This document shows, one piece after another, positions 47,843-55,488 of a DNA stretch of 64,000 nucleotides (within the stretch, counting starts at the first letter, position 1; each line of letters opens with the position of its first letter). Below the pieces are notes generated by a model that ran no database searches, was not told the origin of the DNA, and was given only the letters and a program-made list of their open reading frames with translations. The position numbers were made by a program, and so were the translations under genes. The stretch covers positions 1,902,877 to 1,966,876 of the forward strand of contig NC_002932.3 in assembly GCF_000006985.1 (NCBI RefSeq), read 5' to 3'. The DNA is from Chlorobaculum tepidum TLS. GTDB lineage: Bacteria; Bacteroidota; Chlorobiia; Chlorobiales; Chlorobiaceae.

Positions 47843-47879
47843 AAGCACCTTATGCACTTGTGTAAGGTGCTTTTTTTTT
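47843..47879 (+). terminator. csmB terminator
   Basis: AAGCACCTTA (47843-47852) pairs with TAAGGTGCTT (47863-47872), 10 bp, followed by nine T. It separates csmB from the downstream amgK-like operon. Confidence 0.92.
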
Positions 47880-47906: not shown

Positions 47907-48923
47907 ATGGAACTCACGGAATCGATCCGACTCCTCTTTCCGCCCGAAGAACGGGCCCAGCTCGACATCAGCGCCATCAAGGGCGACGCCTCCAACCGGC
48001 AGTACTACAGGGTCACTGGCCAAGGCAGTGTATCGGTCGTCTGCGCCGATCCAGCGTTCCGGGCAACCGCAGTGGAAAACTACCCTTTCCTGATTGTCCG
48101 CGACCTCTTCGCGCGGCACGGAATCCGGGTGCCTGAACTGCTCGGCATGGTACATGAGCAGGGACTGCTACGCCTCGAAGATTGCGGCGACCTCATGCTG
48201 CAAGACGAAGTGCCGCTCCTCGACCGCAACCGGCTTTCGGCACGCTACCGGCAGGTAATCGACCTGCTCGTTCGCATCCAGTCGATCAGACCCGACAAGG
48301 ATGCGTTGACGACTACGCTTCCCTTTTCGCTGAGTTTCGACCACGAAAAGCTCATGTTCGAGTTCGACTTCTTCATCGAACACGCCCTGAATGGCTATTT
48401 CGCAGGACGGCTCGGCAAACCGGCAATCGCTCGGCTTCGCGAGGAGTTCATCAATATCTGCGACCTGCTGGTGCTGCCGAAGCATTTCGTCCTGAATCAT
48501 CGCGATTTCCATAGCCGTAACATCATGCTGTTTCGCGCTGAACCGGTCGTCATCGACTTCCAGGACGCCCGACTCGGCCTGCCGCAGTACGACGCTGTGT
48601 CACTCCTGCGCGATTCCTACGTCCGGCTCGATCCGGGCATGGTCAATGAGCTGAAACGCTACCATTTCAACCAGCTCGTCCAACTCGGGCTGACGTCAAT
48701 GGGCGAAGCGGAATATCTCCGCCTGTTCGACCTGATGGCTTTCCAGCGCAACGTCAAGGCGATCGGCACCTTCTGCTACCAGACCACTGTGGCTGGTAAC
48801 CGCACGTTTGAACCAAGCATCGCGGCAACCCTCAGCTACCTGAGAGAGTACATCGAAGCCAGGCCTGAACTTGCCATGGCTGGCCGCCTGCTCAAACCGA
48901 TCATTCCCGAAATTTCGCGATGA
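47907..48923 (+). CDS. AmgK-like sugar kinase (APH fold)
   Basis: This 338-residue phosphotransferase of the aminoglycoside-kinase fold resembles AmgK, which phosphorylates the anomeric carbon of MurNAc and GlcNAc during cell-wall recycling. The start ATG 47907 begins MELTESIRLLFPPEERAQLDISAIKGDASNRQYYRV, matching AmgK-type GGDAS-RRYFR loops. Catalytic HRDFHSRNIML (about residue 197) and metal-binding IDFQDARLGLPQYDAVSLL follow. Its stop overlaps the start of the MurU-like gene (ATGA). The pairing amgK-murU is the recycling module known from Pseudomonas putida, which strongly supports the call. Antibiotic resistance is unlikely. Confidence 0.82.
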   Translation: MELTESIRLLFPPEERAQLDISAIKGDASNRQYYRVTGQGSVSVVCADPAFRATAVENYPFLIVRDLFARHGIRVPELLGMVHEQGLLRLEDCGDLMLQDEVPLLDRNRLSARYRQVIDLLVRIQSIRPDKDALTTTLPFSLSFDHEKLMFEFDFFIEHALNGYFAGRLGKPAIARLREEFINICDLLVLPKHFVLNHRDFHSRNIMLFRAEPVVIDFQDARLGLPQYDAVSLLRDSYVRLDPGMVNELKRYHFNQLVQLGLTSMGEAEYLRLFDLMAFQRNVKAIGTFCYQTTVAGNRTFEPSIAATLSYLREYIEARPELAMAGRLLKPIIPEISR

Positions 48924-49849
48924 ACGCTTTCGTCCTGGCTGCGGGTTTCGGCACCCGCCTGCAGCCGCTGACCGACACGATGCCCAAACCGCTCGTTCCG
49001 GTGCTGAACGTGCCGAGCCTCTGCTACTCGCTGTTCCTGCTCAAGGAGGCGGGCATCCGCAAAGCGATCATCAATATCCACCACCACACGGAGAGCCTTC
49101 GACAATTTTTTGACCGCCACGATTTCGGCAGCCTCGAAATCGTACTCTCGGAGGAGCGTGAAATTCTCGGCACCGGCGGCGGACTGAAAAAATGCGAGCA
49201 CTTGCTCGATGGAGAAGAGTTCGTGCTCATCAACAGCGACATCATCAGCGACATCAACCTGCGCTCGCTCATCGACGCGCACCAGCGCTCTGGCTGCGGC
49301 GGCACGCTCGCGCTCTATGAAACTCCGCTGGCGGCGCAGATAGGGTATATCGGTGTGCGCGACGGACTGGTGCTTGATTTCAGGAACCAGCGCGGCACCG
49401 GCCTCTCGTCATCGTTTATCTACACCGGAACGGCGGTGTTCAACCCCGAGATTTTCCGCCACCTGAAAACCGAGTTTTCCGGCATTGTCGAAACTGGCTT
49501 TTATGGGTTGGCAGACAACGGGAGGCTGGCATTGTTCGAGCATCGCGGATTGTGGCAGGATATTGGCACCCTGCCGAATTTTTACCGCGCAAACCTCGAC
49601 GATAATTTGCGTATTCTTCAGCTTGCGGGGCGCATACAACGGGAGATCGGCTTTTTTCCGCACATGATTTCAGATGATGCGTCGATCAACCCCGAGGCCC
49701 ACGTCGAAAATTCGGTGCTCGGCGCGAACTGCGCGATAGCCGCCGAAGCCATCGTGGAGCACTCGGTGCTCCTGCCCGGCACCATCATCGAACGCGGCGA
49801 GACGCTTCGTAACGCAATCGCCGCACCAGGCATCCGCATTCCACTGTAA
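48920..49849 (+). CDS. MurU-like sugar-1-phosphate nucleotidyltransferase
   Basis: This 309-residue nucleotidyltransferase has the signature VLAAGFGTRLQPLTDTMPKPLVPVLN at residues 5-30 and INSDIISDI for metal binding. In the AmgK-MurU pathway it would convert MurNAc 1-phosphate to UDP-MurNAc, bypassing fosfomycin-sensitive de novo synthesis. It is longer than P. putida MurU (about 220 residues): residues about 240-305 form a hexapeptide-repeat-like tail (HVENSVLGANCAIAAEAIVEHSVLLPGTII). It could instead make another NDP-sugar, but coupling with the kinase and the NamZ homologue 27 bases downstream favours MurNAc recycling. Confidence 0.8.
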   Translation: MNAFVLAAGFGTRLQPLTDTMPKPLVPVLNVPSLCYSLFLLKEAGIRKAIINIHHHTESLRQFFDRHDFGSLEIVLSEEREILGTGGGLKKCEHLLDGEEFVLINSDIISDINLRSLIDAHQRSGCGGTLALYETPLAAQIGYIGVRDGLVLDFRNQRGTGLSSSFIYTGTAVFNPEIFRHLKTEFSGIVETGFYGLADNGRLALFEHRGLWQDIGTLPNFYRANLDDNLRILQLAGRIQREIGFFPHMISDDASINPEAHVENSVLGANCAIAAEAIVEHSVLLPGTIIERGETLRNAIAAPGIRIPL

Positions 49850-49876
49850 ACTCCCGACAGCGCAAACGGCAACGGC

Positions 49877-51043
49877 ATGGTCATCAACGGTCTCGACATA
49901 CTCCTCCAGAATCCCGAAGTCCTGCGCCACCGGCGCGTCGGCCTGATCGCCAACCAGACCTCGGTGTCGATGCAGCTTGAATATTCGTGGATGCTGCTCA
50001 AGCGCGCTGGCGTCGAGCTGACGAGAATCTTCTCGCCGGAGCACGGCCTCTTCGCCATCGAGCAGGATCAGATCGCCGTCGGCCACCAGCCCGATATCGG
50101 CTGCGAAATCGTGAGCCTCTACGGCGACAGCGAGCACTCGCTCGCCCCGGCCCGCGAGCTGCTCGACGGACTCGATCTGGTGCTCTTCGACATTCAGGAT
50201 GTCGGCTCGCGCTACTACACCTACGTCAACACACTGGCGCTCTTCATGAAGGCCGCCGAGGGACTCGACATCGAGATCATGGTGCTCGACCGACCGAACC
50301 CGCTTGGCGGCTCGCTGATCGAGGGGCCGCAGCTCGATCCGGCGTTTCACTCCTTCGTCGGCGTCATGCCGCTGCCGGTGCGCCACGGATTGACCGCCGG
50401 AGAGATCGCCCACTTCTACCGCAACTACAAAAAGCTCGACCTCAACCTGAACGTGATTCCGATGCAGGGGTGGTCGCGCCAGATGCTCTTTCCGGAAACC
50501 TGCCTGCCCTGGGTGCCACCCTCGCCGAACATGCCCTCGTTCGAGGCTGCGGAGGTTTACCCCGGCATGTGCCTCTTCGAAGGACTGAACGTCTCGGAGG
50601 GGCGCGGAACGACCACACCATTCCTCTTGAGCGGCGCGACATTTGTCGATCCGGAAGCACTGGCCGAGCGGCTCGCCTCGATGCCGCTGGAGGGCGTCGT
50701 GTTCCGTCCGACCTGGTTCCGCCCAACCTTCCACAAATACGCTGGCGAGGCCATCGGCGGCCTTTACCTGCACGTAACCGACCACGCCCGCTTCCGCCCC
50801 TTCGCGACCGGCGTGGCCATGACCTGCGCTTTGTACGAACTCTATCCTGAACAGCTCGCCTTTCTCGACGGTGTGTACGAATTCAGGGACGACATTCCTG
50901 CATTCGACCTGCTTGCCGGAAGCAGCACGATCCGCTCGATGATTCTCGACAATCGAGACACCACCGCAATCATCGCTTCGTGGGAAAAAGACGAGGCAGA
51001 GTTCGCGGCGATCAAACCCAACTTCCACCTGTACAACAACTGA
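49877..51043 (+). CDS. NamZ-like exo-beta-N-acetylmuramidase (DUF1343)
   Basis: This 388-residue DUF1343 protein resembles B. subtilis NamZ (YbbC), which releases MurNAc from non-reducing ends of peptidoglycan fragments. Conserved blocks are RVGLIANQTSV, TRIFSPEHGLFAIEQD (acidic active-site region, Glu55), VLFDIQDVGSRYYTYVNTL, LDRPNPLGG and GLTAGEIAHFYRN, then FVDPEALAERL and PTFHKYAGEAIGGLYLHV. No signal peptide precedes the domain, so it would act in the cytoplasm on imported disaccharides, unlike the secreted B. subtilis enzyme. It lies between the MurU-like gene and a sodium symporter. Family call is firm; the operon role is inference. Confidence 0.88.
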   Translation: MVINGLDILLQNPEVLRHRRVGLIANQTSVSMQLEYSWMLLKRAGVELTRIFSPEHGLFAIEQDQIAVGHQPDIGCEIVSLYGDSEHSLAPARELLDGLDLVLFDIQDVGSRYYTYVNTLALFMKAAEGLDIEIMVLDRPNPLGGSLIEGPQLDPAFHSFVGVMPLPVRHGLTAGEIAHFYRNYKKLDLNLNVIPMQGWSRQMLFPETCLPWVPPSPNMPSFEAAEVYPGMCLFEGLNVSEGRGTTTPFLLSGATFVDPEALAERLASMPLEGVVFRPTWFRPTFHKYAGEAIGGLYLHVTDHARFRPFATGVAMTCALYELYPEQLAFLDGVYEFRDDIPAFDLLAGSSTIRSMILDNRDTTAIIASWEKDEAEFAAIKPNFHLYNN

Positions 51044-51067
51044 CATCACAACCGATCCGGGCACCTG

Positions 51068-52483
51068 TTGAGCATGCAACCTCTCGATTACGCCATCATC
51101 ATTCTCTTTCTGGCGGGCAACATGATGCTCGGTCTGTGGCAAGGACGGAGCAACAAGCAGACCTCCGACTACTTTCTCGGCGGCCACAAGCTTCCGTGGT
51201 TCGCGGTGATGCTCTCCATCGTGGCCACCGAAACCTCGGTGCTGACCTTCGTGAGCGTTCCGGGCCTGGCCTACCGGGGCGACTGGAGCTTCCTCCAGCT
51301 CGCGTTCGGCTACATCGTCGGGCGGATTCTGGTCAGCTTCATCCTGCTGCCCACCTATTTCAAACATGGCGTCACCTCGATCTATGAGGTGATCGGCATG
51401 AGGTTCGGCCACGGTATCCAGAAAACCGCCTCGGTGATTTTTCTGATAACGAGGATTCTGGGCGACGGTATCCGCTTCCTCGCGACCGGCGTGGTGGTGC
51501 AGGCGGTCACCGGCTGGCCGCTCTCGCTCTCGGTGCTGGTCATCGGCATTGTCACCCTCGTCTACACCATTTCGGGCGGGCTGAAAACCGTGGTGTGGCT
51601 CGACAGCATCCAGTTCGGGCTGTACCTCGGTGGCGGCGTTATCGCCATCGCCTTCATCCTCGCCCGCCTCGACGCGCCGCTGCCCGATCTTCTCGCGCCG
51701 CTCCTGGCCGCCGGAAAGCTGAAAATCATCGACACCGACCCGCACATCTTCACCAACCCGCTCTCGTTTGTCAGCGCCTTTTCCGGCGGTATCCTTCTTT
51801 CGCTCTGCTCGCACGGCGTCGATTACCTGATGGTGCAGCGCGTGCTCGGCTGCGACGGCCTCGGCTCGGCCCGCAAGGCGATGATCGCCAGCGGCGTGTT
51901 CGTACTCTTCCAGTTTGCGCTGTTCCTCCTGGCAGGTTCGCTGATCTATGTGTTTTTCCATGGTGCGCCACTCGTCAAAGATCGCGAATTCACCAGTTTC
52001 ATCGTCAGAGCACTGCCCGCCGGCCTCAAGGGGCTGCTGCTGGCCGGAATTCTTTCTGCCGCCATGTCAACCTTGGCCTCATCGATCAACTCACTGGCCG
52101 CTTCGACGGTCACCGACCTCATAAAAGGCAAGGCGTCGCTCAGCACATCACGCCTCATCAGCGTCGCCTGGGCCGCTGTGCTGATCGGCATCGCCCTTGT
52201 GTTCAACGAAAACGACAAGGCAATCGTCATGCTTGGCCTCGAAATCGCCTCGTTCACCTATGGCGGCCTGCTCGGGCTGTTCCTGCTCTCGAAAAGCAGC
52301 CGCAATTTCCACTCAACGAGCCTCATCGCCGGACTGCTGGCCAGTATGGCGGTGGTGTTCCTGCTCAAGCTCCTCGGCCTGGCATGGACATGGTACATTG
52401 CCGTTTCTGTAACGACTAACATCCTGACGACAGCCGGAGTCGAAGCGTTGCTTCCCGACAGGGAGTCTTTTGCACGGGAATAA
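51068..52483 (+). CDS. Sodium:solute symporter (SSS family)
   Basis: This 471-residue membrane protein has 13 predicted spans. The start is TTG 51068 or, two codons later, ATG 51074. SSS features include DYFLGGHKLPWFAVMLSIVATETSVLTFVSVPGLAYRGDWSF near the N-terminus and the sodium-site segment AGILSAAMSTLASSINSLAASTVTDLIKG (about residues 330-358). The family carries sugars, sialic acid, nucleosides, proline and others. It lies 24 bases after namZ in an apparent amgK-murU-namZ operon, so uptake of MurNAc or MurNAc-GlcNAc is the natural hypothesis. No binding residue identifies the substrate. Confidence 0.9.
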   Translation: MSMQPLDYAIIILFLAGNMMLGLWQGRSNKQTSDYFLGGHKLPWFAVMLSIVATETSVLTFVSVPGLAYRGDWSFLQLAFGYIVGRILVSFILLPTYFKHGVTSIYEVIGMRFGHGIQKTASVIFLITRILGDGIRFLATGVVVQAVTGWPLSLSVLVIGIVTLVYTISGGLKTVVWLDSIQFGLYLGGGVIAIAFILARLDAPLPDLLAPLLAAGKLKIIDTDPHIFTNPLSFVSAFSGGILLSLCSHGVDYLMVQRVLGCDGLGSARKAMIASGVFVLFQFALFLLAGSLIYVFFHGAPLVKDREFTSFIVRALPAGLKGLLLAGILSAAMSTLASSINSLAASTVTDLIKGKASLSTSRLISVAWAAVLIGIALVFNENDKAIVMLGLEIASFTYGGLLGLFLLSKSSRNFHSTSLIAGLLASMAVVFLLKLLGLAWTWYIAVSVTTNILTTAGVEALLPDRESFARE

Positions 52484-52605: not shown

Positions 52606-52983
52606 ATGAAAACCAATGATCCCATCCTGGTCATCGAGGATGAGGACGATATCAGGCAGATGATCTGCGACATTCTCGAAGAGGACGGTTATGCTACCGT
52701 TCAGGCATCCAATGGCAACGAAGGATTGCAGCTTCTCCAAAAAACGCCCGAGATACGCATTGTCATCACCGACCTTCTGATGCCTGAAAAAGAGGGTATC
52801 GCCATGATCAGCGAACTAAGGGAAGATTTCCCATGGATCAAGGTGGTCGCTATCTCCGGTGGAGGAATCCTCATTCCGGAAAACTATCTCAACCGGGCCA
52901 AAGCCGTTGGATCCGATGCCACACTATGCAAACCGTTTGAAAGCGGCGAGCTCCTGAGCATCATAGAGGAGCTGAACCGATAA
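52606..52983 (+). CDS. Stand-alone receiver-domain response regulator (first)
   Basis: This 125-residue CheY-like receiver has the acidic pocket EDEDD at residues 11-15, phospho-acceptor Asp56 in ITDLLMPEKEG, the switch Ser in VVAISGGG and Lys in LCKPFESGEL. There is no output domain, so it would act by protein contact or as a phosphate shuttle. It begins a cluster with a hybrid kinase (74 bases on) and a second, very similar receiver; both share MPEKEG and AISGGG. The preceding spacer (52484-52605) is AT-rich and probably holds the promoter. Confidence 0.92.
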   Translation: MKTNDPILVIEDEDDIRQMICDILEEDGYATVQASNGNEGLQLLQKTPEIRIVITDLLMPEKEGIAMISELREDFPWIKVVAISGGGILIPENYLNRAKAVGSDATLCKPFESGELLSIIEELNR

Positions 52984-53056
52984 GCCCGATCGGTGTGTTT
53001 TGCCATATCAAAACCCTATCCGCCAGCGAACTGCACCCAGTCACAAACTTTCAGTA

Positions 53057-55129
53057 ATGAACAGTCACAAAACGGATGTGCCGGCAGGCGATGAAAACAG
53101 CATGCTCAAGGGGAGCATCGAAGCGCTTGAGAAAAAAATCGCCATGCTTGAAAACAGAGCCTCAATTGCCGAACAGAAGGCTGATGCGCTGAAAACAGCC
53201 CTTGAATCAGCCCGGGCAGGGTACTGGGAGTGGAATGTCGAAAACGGGACGATTCTTATCGACCGGCAATGGGCTGTCATTAGCGGTTACAACTCGGCCG
53301 ATTTTGATATGCTGACGATGGAACAGTGGCGTGAGCTGTGCCACCCGGCCGATCTTGGCGTGGTCACAAAATCGATAGAAGAGCTTCTGGATGGCAGCAT
53401 GGAGCGTCTTGAACTTGAACTGCGGGTCCGCCATAAGAATGGCGAATGGATCCGGGTGCTCGACTGCGGCAAGGTCACCGGACGCAGCAAGAACGGTAAA
53501 CCGTCATGCCTGACCGGTTCAAGGCAGGCACTGGCAAGCCTGCACGACAAACCTGAATCACCGGTAAAAAATGTGCCGGAGGAACTGCAAGCGCTGGTCG
53601 ACAATATCCCGGCGGCGATTTATCACCTTGATGTCTCAGGGCAAGCCACCATTCGTTTCCGGCCACCGGCCTTTCTGAAAACCCTTGTTTCAGAGCATGC
53701 CGGCACAACCCGGCTGAACACCCTTTCGATGATTCACCATGATGACCGGCATATGCTGAGCAACGCCTACAGCAAACTCAGAGAAGCCAAACATTCCCTT
53801 ACTCTGGTCTACCGTATAGTCACCCCGGAGGGAAAACTGCACTGGATCGAAGACCATATGAGGTCATCGTTCTCGGATGATGGACTTTTTTCAGGAATCG
53901 ACGGTATCCTGTGCGAAGTCACCGACCGGATCGCCAGACTCGAAAAAACACGCAAGCTCGAATCGCAACTGAGCAAATCGCAGAGACTCGAAACCATCGG
54001 GACCCTTGCCGGCGGTATCGCGCATGACTTCAACAACATCCTCACGCCGATTCTCGGTTACGCCGAAATGGGGCTTTCGAGTATCGATGAAGATGACCCG
54101 ATACATGAATATTTCGCTGAAATCATGCAGGCCGCAGAACGGGCACAAAAGCTTGTCTCACAAATCCTGACCTTCAGCAAGGCAGAAGAGGGCAAGACCG
54201 CGCCTGTAAGCATTCAGGAGGTCATTGACGAAGTGATCCGGCTTATGCGGCCATCGCTGCCATCGAGCGTTTCCATTGAAGAGGATATTGACAGTTCATG
54301 CCACAAGGTTATCGCAGACCCGGCCCAGATGCACCAGGTTGTCGTCAATCTGTGCACCAATGCCCTCCATGCGATGGAACAGACTGGCGGAGTCCTGAAG
54401 ATCGTGCTCAGGGAAGTGAGCACCGGAAACGGGATGCCGCCGATAGCACCGGAACTGCCTGATGGAAACTATGCAGAACTGATCATTTCCGATACCGGAA
54501 CCGGTATGGATAGCAGAGCCATAGAACGTATTTTCGAACCATTCTTCACGACAAAATCGGTCGAAAAAGGGTCTGGACTCGGCCTGTCGGTCGTTCACGG
54601 CATCGTGACCGGCGCCAACGGACATATCAGCGTTGAAAGCACGCAAGGGAAGGGTTCTGCGTTCCATGTCTGGCTGCCGGTTATCAAAAGTAACACCCCC
54701 GACAGATTGGAACAAAACCCACTGTTAGCAAAATATGCTGCCAGTGTTCTCTTTATCGACGATGAACCGGCTACAGTGAATCTGGTAACAATCATGATGA
54801 CCAAGCTCGGCTATAATATCAGGGCAGAAAACTCTCCGGTCGAGGCGCTGAAATTCTTCAGAGAACAACCAGACCAGTTTGACCTGGTAATCACTGACCT
54901 GACCATGCCTGAAATGACCGGCATACAGTTGAGCAGCGAGATCCACAAAATCGCGCCCTCGATTCCGGTGATTCTGATGACTGGATACGGAAAAATGATT
55001 GACCACGATATGCCGCTGAGACACTACGGCATAAACCACTTGTTAAAAAAACCGCTCAAGCTTGCTCACTTGGCGTTGGCTGTCAAAGAAGTACTCTCAT
55101 CAACAACCAATCTCCTCACAGAAATATGA
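53057..55129 (+). CDS. PAS-containing hybrid sensor histidine kinase
   Basis: This 690-residue soluble kinase starts at ATG 53057; a TTG 19 codons earlier is possible. An N-terminal coiled coil (about residues 16-50) is followed by a PAS domain (YWEWNVENGTILIDRQWAVISGY, about 55-160) and a second PAS-like domain (about 175-305). The phosphorylated His323 lies in GTLAGGIAHDFNNILTPILGY. The ATPase domain has CTNALHAM, ISDTGTGMD and GSGLGLSVVHGIV. A C-terminal receiver (VLFIDDEPATVNLV...VITDLTMPEMTG) ends the protein. No membrane segment is seen, so the signal is cytoplasmic (perhaps redox, light or a ligand). Its stop overlaps the next receiver gene by four bases. Confidence 0.93.
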   Translation: MNSHKTDVPAGDENSMLKGSIEALEKKIAMLENRASIAEQKADALKTALESARAGYWEWNVENGTILIDRQWAVISGYNSADFDMLTMEQWRELCHPADLGVVTKSIEELLDGSMERLELELRVRHKNGEWIRVLDCGKVTGRSKNGKPSCLTGSRQALASLHDKPESPVKNVPEELQALVDNIPAAIYHLDVSGQATIRFRPPAFLKTLVSEHAGTTRLNTLSMIHHDDRHMLSNAYSKLREAKHSLTLVYRIVTPEGKLHWIEDHMRSSFSDDGLFSGIDGILCEVTDRIARLEKTRKLESQLSKSQRLETIGTLAGGIAHDFNNILTPILGYAEMGLSSIDEDDPIHEYFAEIMQAAERAQKLVSQILTFSKAEEGKTAPVSIQEVIDEVIRLMRPSLPSSVSIEEDIDSSCHKVIADPAQMHQVVVNLCTNALHAMEQTGGVLKIVLREVSTGNGMPPIAPELPDGNYAELIISDTGTGMDSRAIERIFEPFFTTKSVEKGSGLGLSVVHGIVTGANGHISVESTQGKGSAFHVWLPVIKSNTPDRLEQNPLLAKYAASVLFIDDEPATVNLVTIMMTKLGYNIRAENSPVEALKFFREQPDQFDLVITDLTMPEMTGIQLSSEIHKIAPSIPVILMTGYGKMIDHDMPLRHYGINHLLKKPLKLAHLALAVKEVLSSTTNLLTEI

Positions 55130-55488
55130 AAATTCTTGTCATCGATGACGATCCTTCCGTCAGAAAATTCATAACCACAACGCTGAAAAAGGAAAACTAT
55201 GCCGTTACCGAAGCGGAAAACGGCGCAGAAGGATTGATCAAACTTCAGCAGGAGAAAGACATCTCTATTATTATCACCGATCTGATCATGCCTGAAAAAG
55301 AGGGCATCGAAACGATCATGGAGGTGCGCAAGATCAATCCCGCTGTGAAAATTCTGGCCATTTCGGGCGGAGGAAAAGCCGGCCCCGAAAATTTCCTGCT
55401 GCTTGCCGATGTCGTTGGAGCCAATGCCACGCTCAAAAAGCCCTTTGGCGGCCAGGAACTGCTCATGTGCCTGCGCATGTTGGCCTGA
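55126..55488 (+). CDS. Stand-alone receiver-domain response regulator (second)
   Basis: This 120-residue CheY-like receiver has acidic pocket IDDDP, phospho-acceptor Asp52 in IITDLIMPEKEG, AISGGGKAGPENF and LKKPFGGQEL. It overlaps the kinase stop by four bases, so the two are translationally coupled. It is a paralogue of the receiver at 52606-52983, and the bracket of two output-less receivers around one hybrid kinase suggests a branched phosphorelay. The csmE gene starts 94 bases downstream on the same strand with no intrinsic terminator between, so read-through into chlorosome genes is possible. Confidence 0.92.
   Translation: MKILVIDDDPSVRKFITTTLKKENYAVTEAENGAEGLIKLQQEKDISIIITDLIMPEKEGIETIMEVRKINPAVKILAISGGGKAGPENFLLLADVVGANATLKKPFGGQELLMCLRMLA

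Follow-up and report, generated by a model that had tools for sequence, protein, structure and literature searches.

The window analyzed here, 64,000 nucleotides of Chlorobaculum tepidum TLS (contig NC_002932.3, positions 1,902,877 to 1,966,876), carries at 47907–52483 of its forward strand four close-set genes that encode, in this order, an AmgK-like kinase, a MurU-like uridylyltransferase, a protein of the NamZ family and a sodium:solute symporter (SSS) (Table 1). The locus runs from the ATG of the kinase gene to the stop codon of the symporter gene. Within it, the amgK and murU frames share 4 bp (48920–48923), murU and namZ are 27 bp apart, and the spacing between namZ and the symporter gene is 24 bp if the latter starts at TTG 51068, or 30 bp if it starts at ATG 51074; the ATG, which is common to the relatives, is the likelier start. 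A preliminary description of this DNA had read the four genes as a complete-looking operon for the salvage of N-acetylmuramic acid (MurNAc). Exact coordinates and domain matches agree that the genes are closely consecutive, and MurNAc salvage is, in our judgement, their probable function. The operon does not hold the whole system, however: elsewhere the genome encodes an exported NamZ as well as two GH3 enzymes whose N-termini are signal-peptide-like.

Table 1. Features of the salvage locus and its upstream region (positions within the window).
Feature	Position	Strand	Evidence and remarks
AmgK-like anomeric MurNAc/GlcNAc kinase, APH fold, 338 amino acids	47907..48923	+	Pfam APH 109 bits; AmgK is the top NCBIfam model
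MurU-like MurNAc-1-phosphate uridylyltransferase, 309 amino acids	48920..49849	+	NTP_transferase domain plus an extra C-terminal left-handed beta-helix domain; TGGG motif; trees
Leaderless (cytoplasmic) NamZ, exo-beta-N-acetylmuramidase family, 388 amino acids	49877..51043	+	NamZ_N and NamZ_C domains; invariant residues; no signal peptide
Sodium:solute symporter, probable MurNAc importer	51074..52483	+	Pfam SSF 96 bits; alternative upstream TTG start at 51068; orthologue in 54/55 Chlorobiaceae
csmB (chlorosome envelope protein B), open reading frame of 75 amino acids	47597..47825	+	Constant upstream neighbour, outside the pathway; upstream of amgK in 20/20 relatives; genome match C1:1950473-1950697
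Intrinsic terminator, 13-bp stem and T-run	47843..47879	+	In the csmB-amgK gap; terminator scan; fold z = -3.6

The order csmB-amgK-murU-namZ-SSS is contiguous in all 20 Chlorobiaceae loci that we read, and the four-gene locus is therefore not a product of chance. Profile searches matched AmgK in 33 of 34 Chlorobiaceae, the symporter in 54 of 55 and a second, cytoplasmic NamZ copy likewise in 54 of 55, the sole exception in each search being the same genome, G056 (99% complete). In G056 we found neither AmgK nor MurU (for the latter, the best match is a distant paralogue, at 46 bits) nor an SSS orthologue, and only the exported NamZ is retained. Its csmB gene is kept (L135, G056:C32), with other genes downstream. 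This is most simply explained by a joint loss of the four operon genes. G056 can be regarded as a natural knock-out for comparison.

Other known means of re-using MurNAc are missing from the family. AnmK was found in none of 54 Chlorobiaceae, while all seven genomes from the order's two other families (f2 and f3) have it; no MurQ scored over its cut-off in 54 Chlorobiaceae or in two f2 genomes, as against five of five in f3; and no AmpG did so in the 62 genomes of the class. Weak matches to MurQ in Chlorobiaceae were set aside, being partial and reaching at most 40 bits against a cut-off of 302; they are probably GlmS and other SIS proteins. As AmpG, AnmK and MurQ are missing, the operon would be the sole known route of MurNAc re-use in the family. 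MurB, in turn, is present in 62 of 62 genomes of the class, so de novo synthesis of UDP-MurNAc probably exists and the operon would serve salvage. MurQ and AmgK alternate within the order, with AmgK and no MurQ in Chlorobiaceae and f2, and MurQ in all five f3 genomes, where AmgK was found in none of the four sampled. A comparable alternation of MurQ or AmgK is known in proteobacteria (PMC5371407). As a side observation on MurB, its C-terminal domain falls, in Chlorobiaceae, within reading frames of about 530–660 amino acids, as against about 310–350 in the order's other families, and the protein may be fused to another domain (G000:C1:1152069-1152365 and relatives).

The operon NamZ lacks a signal peptide, as the preliminary description had claimed. 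Both domains of the family (GH171; Pfam PF07075 and PF20732) are matched well above cut-off (NamZ_N 247 bits against 26.9, NamZ_C 169 bits against 25). The reading frame begins MVINGLDILL, which coincides with the first residues of the mature domain in exported NamZs. About half of the 20 relatives' loci offer no in-frame upstream start, and the remaining upstream readings are not hydrophobic; together with the alignment to the mature domain this fixes the start, and no alternative start yields a signal peptide. Export is usual for NamZ proteins (that of Bacillus subtilis is secreted), although it does not define the family, and the operon protein departs from the rule. The motifs PEHG, DxQDxGxR and DRPNP are retained in 20 of 20 cytoplasmic sequences, as are, in the operon NamZ, the near-invariant residues of 33 exported NamZs and of PDB entries 4k05 and 4jja, save for about two hydrophobic positions. 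The enzyme is predicted to free MurNAc from non-reducing ends.

A second NamZ paralogue with a clear signal peptide is encoded outside the window (C1:915693-916775). We considered whether the cytoplasmic NamZ is a recent copy of this paralogue and ruled it out: the leaderless Chlorobial NamZs form a clade that is separate from the exported copies of Chlorobia and neighbours leaderless NamZs of other Bacteroidota (support 99/95, long branches). The earlier view of a cytoplasmic NamZ as unusual needs correction, as leaderless members do occur in other Bacteroidota, though those sampled read PQHG rather than PEHG. These PQHG proteins (L067:7467-8651, L055:7643-8890, L295:7925-9109, L296:7325-8512, L297:7906-9093 and L298:7639-8829) have Gln in place of Glu in a probable catalytic motif, and three of them adjoin large pairs of outer-membrane receptor and lipoprotein genes (SusC/SusD-like).

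The evidence for the symporter as a MurNAc importer comes from its superfamily and its neighbours. Like the Tannerella MurNAc transporter MurT, it is a member of the sodium symporter superfamily; MurT is so placed in PMC5790795, and elsewhere in the same paper in the major facilitator superfamily. In the order's other families, the SSS orthologue adjoins the exported NamZ (L139, L141, L146, L154). The survey of NamZ with SSS transporters that the preliminary description had proposed, carried out here as a scan of genome contigs with 80 SSS homologues and their fetched flanks, finds that the linkage recurs: NamZ lies in the fetched locus of 10 of the 80 homologues, where about 0.4 would be expected, and does so in at least four lineages. 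In two loci (L168, L199) the genes for NamZ, a BadF-type sugar kinase, MurQ, an NagX-like protein and the SSS occur together, in L227 those for GH3, SSS and NamZ, while a Bacteroidota metagenome-assembled genome (MAG) has SSS, MurU, AmgK and NamZ in one neighbourhood (L170). The clade of symporters can be flagged as likely MurNAc transporters. The same survey met two single reading frames of 876–886 amino acids in which a NamZ domain without PEHG is fused to an SSS (L207:4617-7247, in an unclassified marine MAG, and L224:6780-9440, in Neomarinimicrobiota/Fidelibacterota), each with a separate exported-looking NamZ gene 3' of it. A reading of the substrate site against SiaT was not counted as evidence, since the Ser60 and Thr63 positions, though conserved, seem widespread across the superfamily, and a Gly aligns with Arg135, with arginines one turn away.

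The kinase has the APH fold with the catalytic HxD...N and DFxD motifs of AmgK, and its motifs HRDFHSRN and IDFQDAR are near-invariant among 18 sequences. Its gene adjoins murU in 20 of 20 Chlorobiaceae loci, and among 20 other loci from the phylum, 16 have a MurU match next to AmgK. The kinase is predicted to act on MurNAc. One Bacteroidota AmgK (L109:7805-9268) has a RapZ_C domain at its C-terminus (117 bits), with MurU as the next gene; a MurNAc kinase joined to RapZ_C suggests a role in sensing amino sugars.

For the nucleotidyltransferase, maximum-likelihood trees place the Chlorobiaceae enzymes on the same side of a branch as the AmgK-adjacent Bacteroidota enzymes and Pseudomonas aeruginosa MurU (PDB 8hhd), with support of 99/96, or 96/95 with two more outgroups. 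The TGGG motif of the MurU structures 8hhd and 4y7t is present in all seven Chlorobiaceae sequences shown; AmgK-adjacent enzymes read TGGG or TGGA, and other nucleotidyltransferases GLAHA, GLAQA, GTAGP and similar. Tree and motif rule out a misnamed mannose-1-phosphate guanylyltransferase (GMPP), RmlA or GalU, despite a higher raw score for GMPP. The preliminary description had foreseen that the enzymes might prove specific for another sugar, such as heptose or glucose. The nucleotidyltransferase does stand apart from GMPP, UGP and the genomic paralogues, which the trees covered; however, as the heptose enzymes HddC and WcbM lie outside these trees, the 8hhd branch is long and raw similarity is nearer to GMPP, MurNAc-1-phosphate is put forward as its predicted substrate.

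Taken together, synteny, the joint loss in G056, the absence of AnmK, MurQ and AmpG, the tree and motif of MurU and the linkages of the symporter favour MurNAc salvage, within which the substrate specificities, the direction in which the pathway runs and what the cytoplasmic NamZ cleaves are predicted from sequence. In this pathway, the exported NamZ and the exported GH3 enzymes (GH3 is found in 62 of 62 genomes of the class, and it is both GH3 genes of C. tepidum that have the N-termini described above) would act in the periplasm to release MurNAc, N-acetylglucosamine (GlcNAc) and perhaps short glycosides of MurNAc. The symporter would bring in MurNAc, and possibly also MurNAc-GlcNAc, with sodium, and the cytoplasmic NamZ would take non-reducing-end MurNAc off any imported glycoside. 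AmgK would then convert MurNAc to MurNAc-alpha-1-phosphate, and MurU this product to UDP-MurNAc, which would enter peptidoglycan synthesis below MurA/MurB. Possible rather than probable is the further proposal of a Chlorobiaceae cycle independent of AmpG, AnmK and MurQ, in which the symporter takes up both MurNAc and MurNAc-GlcNAc, a cytoplasmic exo-muramidase feeds AmgK and MurU, and non-anhydro fragments take the place of anhydro-sugars.

Several observations weigh against MurNAc salvage. The kinase reaches 114.5 bits with its best model, NCBIfam AmgK NF045759, far under the cut-off of 550, and the nucleotidyltransferase 121 bits with the MurU equivalog, where 250 is required. Bacteroidota enzymes that adjoin one another fall short in the same way, the kinases at 63–74 bits, as compared with 114 in Chlorobiaceae, and MurU at 116–136 bits. 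In raw score the nucleotidyltransferase is closer to mannose-1-phosphate guanylyltransferases (136 versus 121 bits with profiles, 103 versus 70 bits with PDB sequences), and it has a left-handed beta-helix (LbH) domain, matched by Hexapep_GlmU at residues 248–308, that is absent from the minimal MurU. No MurNAc gene can be recognised in the fetched flanks of most of the 80 SSS homologues, the likeness of the symporter to MurT is one of superfamily assignment, not of sequence comparison, and no MurNAc-GlcNAc importer is known here. Finally, the cytoplasmic NamZ would be redundant if MurNAc were already freed in the periplasm.

This last point leads to the alternative that survives best, though we regard it as unlikely: MurNAc salvage holds, but the cytoplasmic NamZ does other work, for example cutting an internal MurNAc glycoside, outside import-linked recycling. 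The exported NamZ and GH3 could indeed free MurNAc outside the cell, and the leaderless NamZs are a separate clade; the operon enzyme nevertheless retains the invariant residues of its exported counterparts, and its gene was lost along with those for the transporter and kinase.

A salvage pathway for GlcNAc, or amino sugars in general, appears improbable. Here the AmgK-type kinase, which in Pseudomonas accepts GlcNAc too, would form GlcNAc-1-phosphate and a GlmU-like transferase UDP-GlcNAc, with MurNAc as a side substrate. The family name of AmgK, MurNAc/GlcNAc kinase, would suit such a role, as would the GlmU/GMPP-like nucleotidyltransferase with its LbH domain and the GlcNAc that exported GH3 enzymes would free. 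Yet the constant partner is NamZ, characterised members of which are MurNAc-specific; the nucleotidyltransferase has the TGGG motif and falls in the MurU group; and the SSS homologues pair with MurQ, a BadF-type kinase and NamZ. Least probable is a nucleotide-sugar pathway of the mannose or heptose type, accompanied by NamZ and the transporter as unrelated passengers; it would accommodate the GMPP-like raw similarity and the unreached MurU and AmgK cut-offs, but not the synteny in 20 of 20 loci, the joint loss in G056, the separation from GMPP, UGP and genomic paralogues (HddC/WcbM lying outside the tree) or an operon free of any other sugar-pathway gene.

Upstream of the salvage genes lies csmB (CT2054), which has been named chlorosome envelope protein B (PMC12285230). 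The terminator in the csmB-amgK gap ends 27 bp 5' of the amgK ATG in C. tepidum, and a hairpin with a T-run occupies this gap in all 20 relatives' loci. Because the kept terminator leaves almost no space for a promoter in those 27 bp, the operon is likely transcribed by partial read-through from the chlorosome gene. A search of the region against Rfam gave no match. On the 3' side, at 52606–55488, are genes for a response regulator, a hybrid histidine kinase and a second response regulator, an arrangement shared by many, but not all, Chlorobiaceae.

If correct, the MurNAc salvage reading provides an apparently sole, and testable, MurNAc recycling route for a whole phototrophic family. It predicts which peptidoglycan fragments the family is able to re-use and which it is not, and that salvage affects sensitivity to fosfomycin; it may also open a natural way to label the cell walls of green sulfur bacteria through MurNAc. 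Among the papers listed by a literature search for MurNAc and AmgK in green sulfur bacteria, none dealt with this lineage. The combination, of which the preliminary description knew no earlier account, is new as such, and so are its fixation across the lineage and the replacement of AmpG, AnmK and MurQ. Its parts are each of a known kind: NamZ and SSS are linked in other lineages, AmgK and MurU pairs and leaderless NamZs occur elsewhere, the four genes meet in L170, and the superfamily is that of MurT.

One close comparison is with AnmK-MupP-AmgK-MurU recycling of the Pseudomonas type, with which the operon shares homologues of AmgK and MurU, the enzymes that lead from MurNAc to UDP-MurNAc, and the absence of MurQ. 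It differs in that AmpG and AnmK are missing (0/62 and 0/54), so that free MurNAc from NamZ would replace the conversion of anhydro-MurNAc to MurNAc-6-phosphate, and in that MurU has the added LbH domain and NamZ and SSS are within the operon. Tannerella forsythia, with the MurNAc utilisation operon murTKQ and a proposed AmgK/MurU route (PMC5790795, PMC7670621), imports MurNAc by a protein of the sodium symporter superfamily, as is predicted here; Chlorobiaceae, by contrast, have neither MurQ nor AmpG, have not lost the MurA/MurB route, as MurB is present, and unite AmgK/MurU, NamZ and SSS in one operon. In the B. subtilis cluster murQ-murR-murP-amiE-nagZ-ybbC, where ybbC encodes NamZ, this enzyme too has genes for a MurNAc importer and for later steps as its neighbours (PMC5061867), but a phosphotransferase system carries out the import and the sugar is catabolised by way of MurQ. 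With the NamZ family at large, the operon NamZ has both domains and the invariant residues in common, and differs from it by having no signal peptide.

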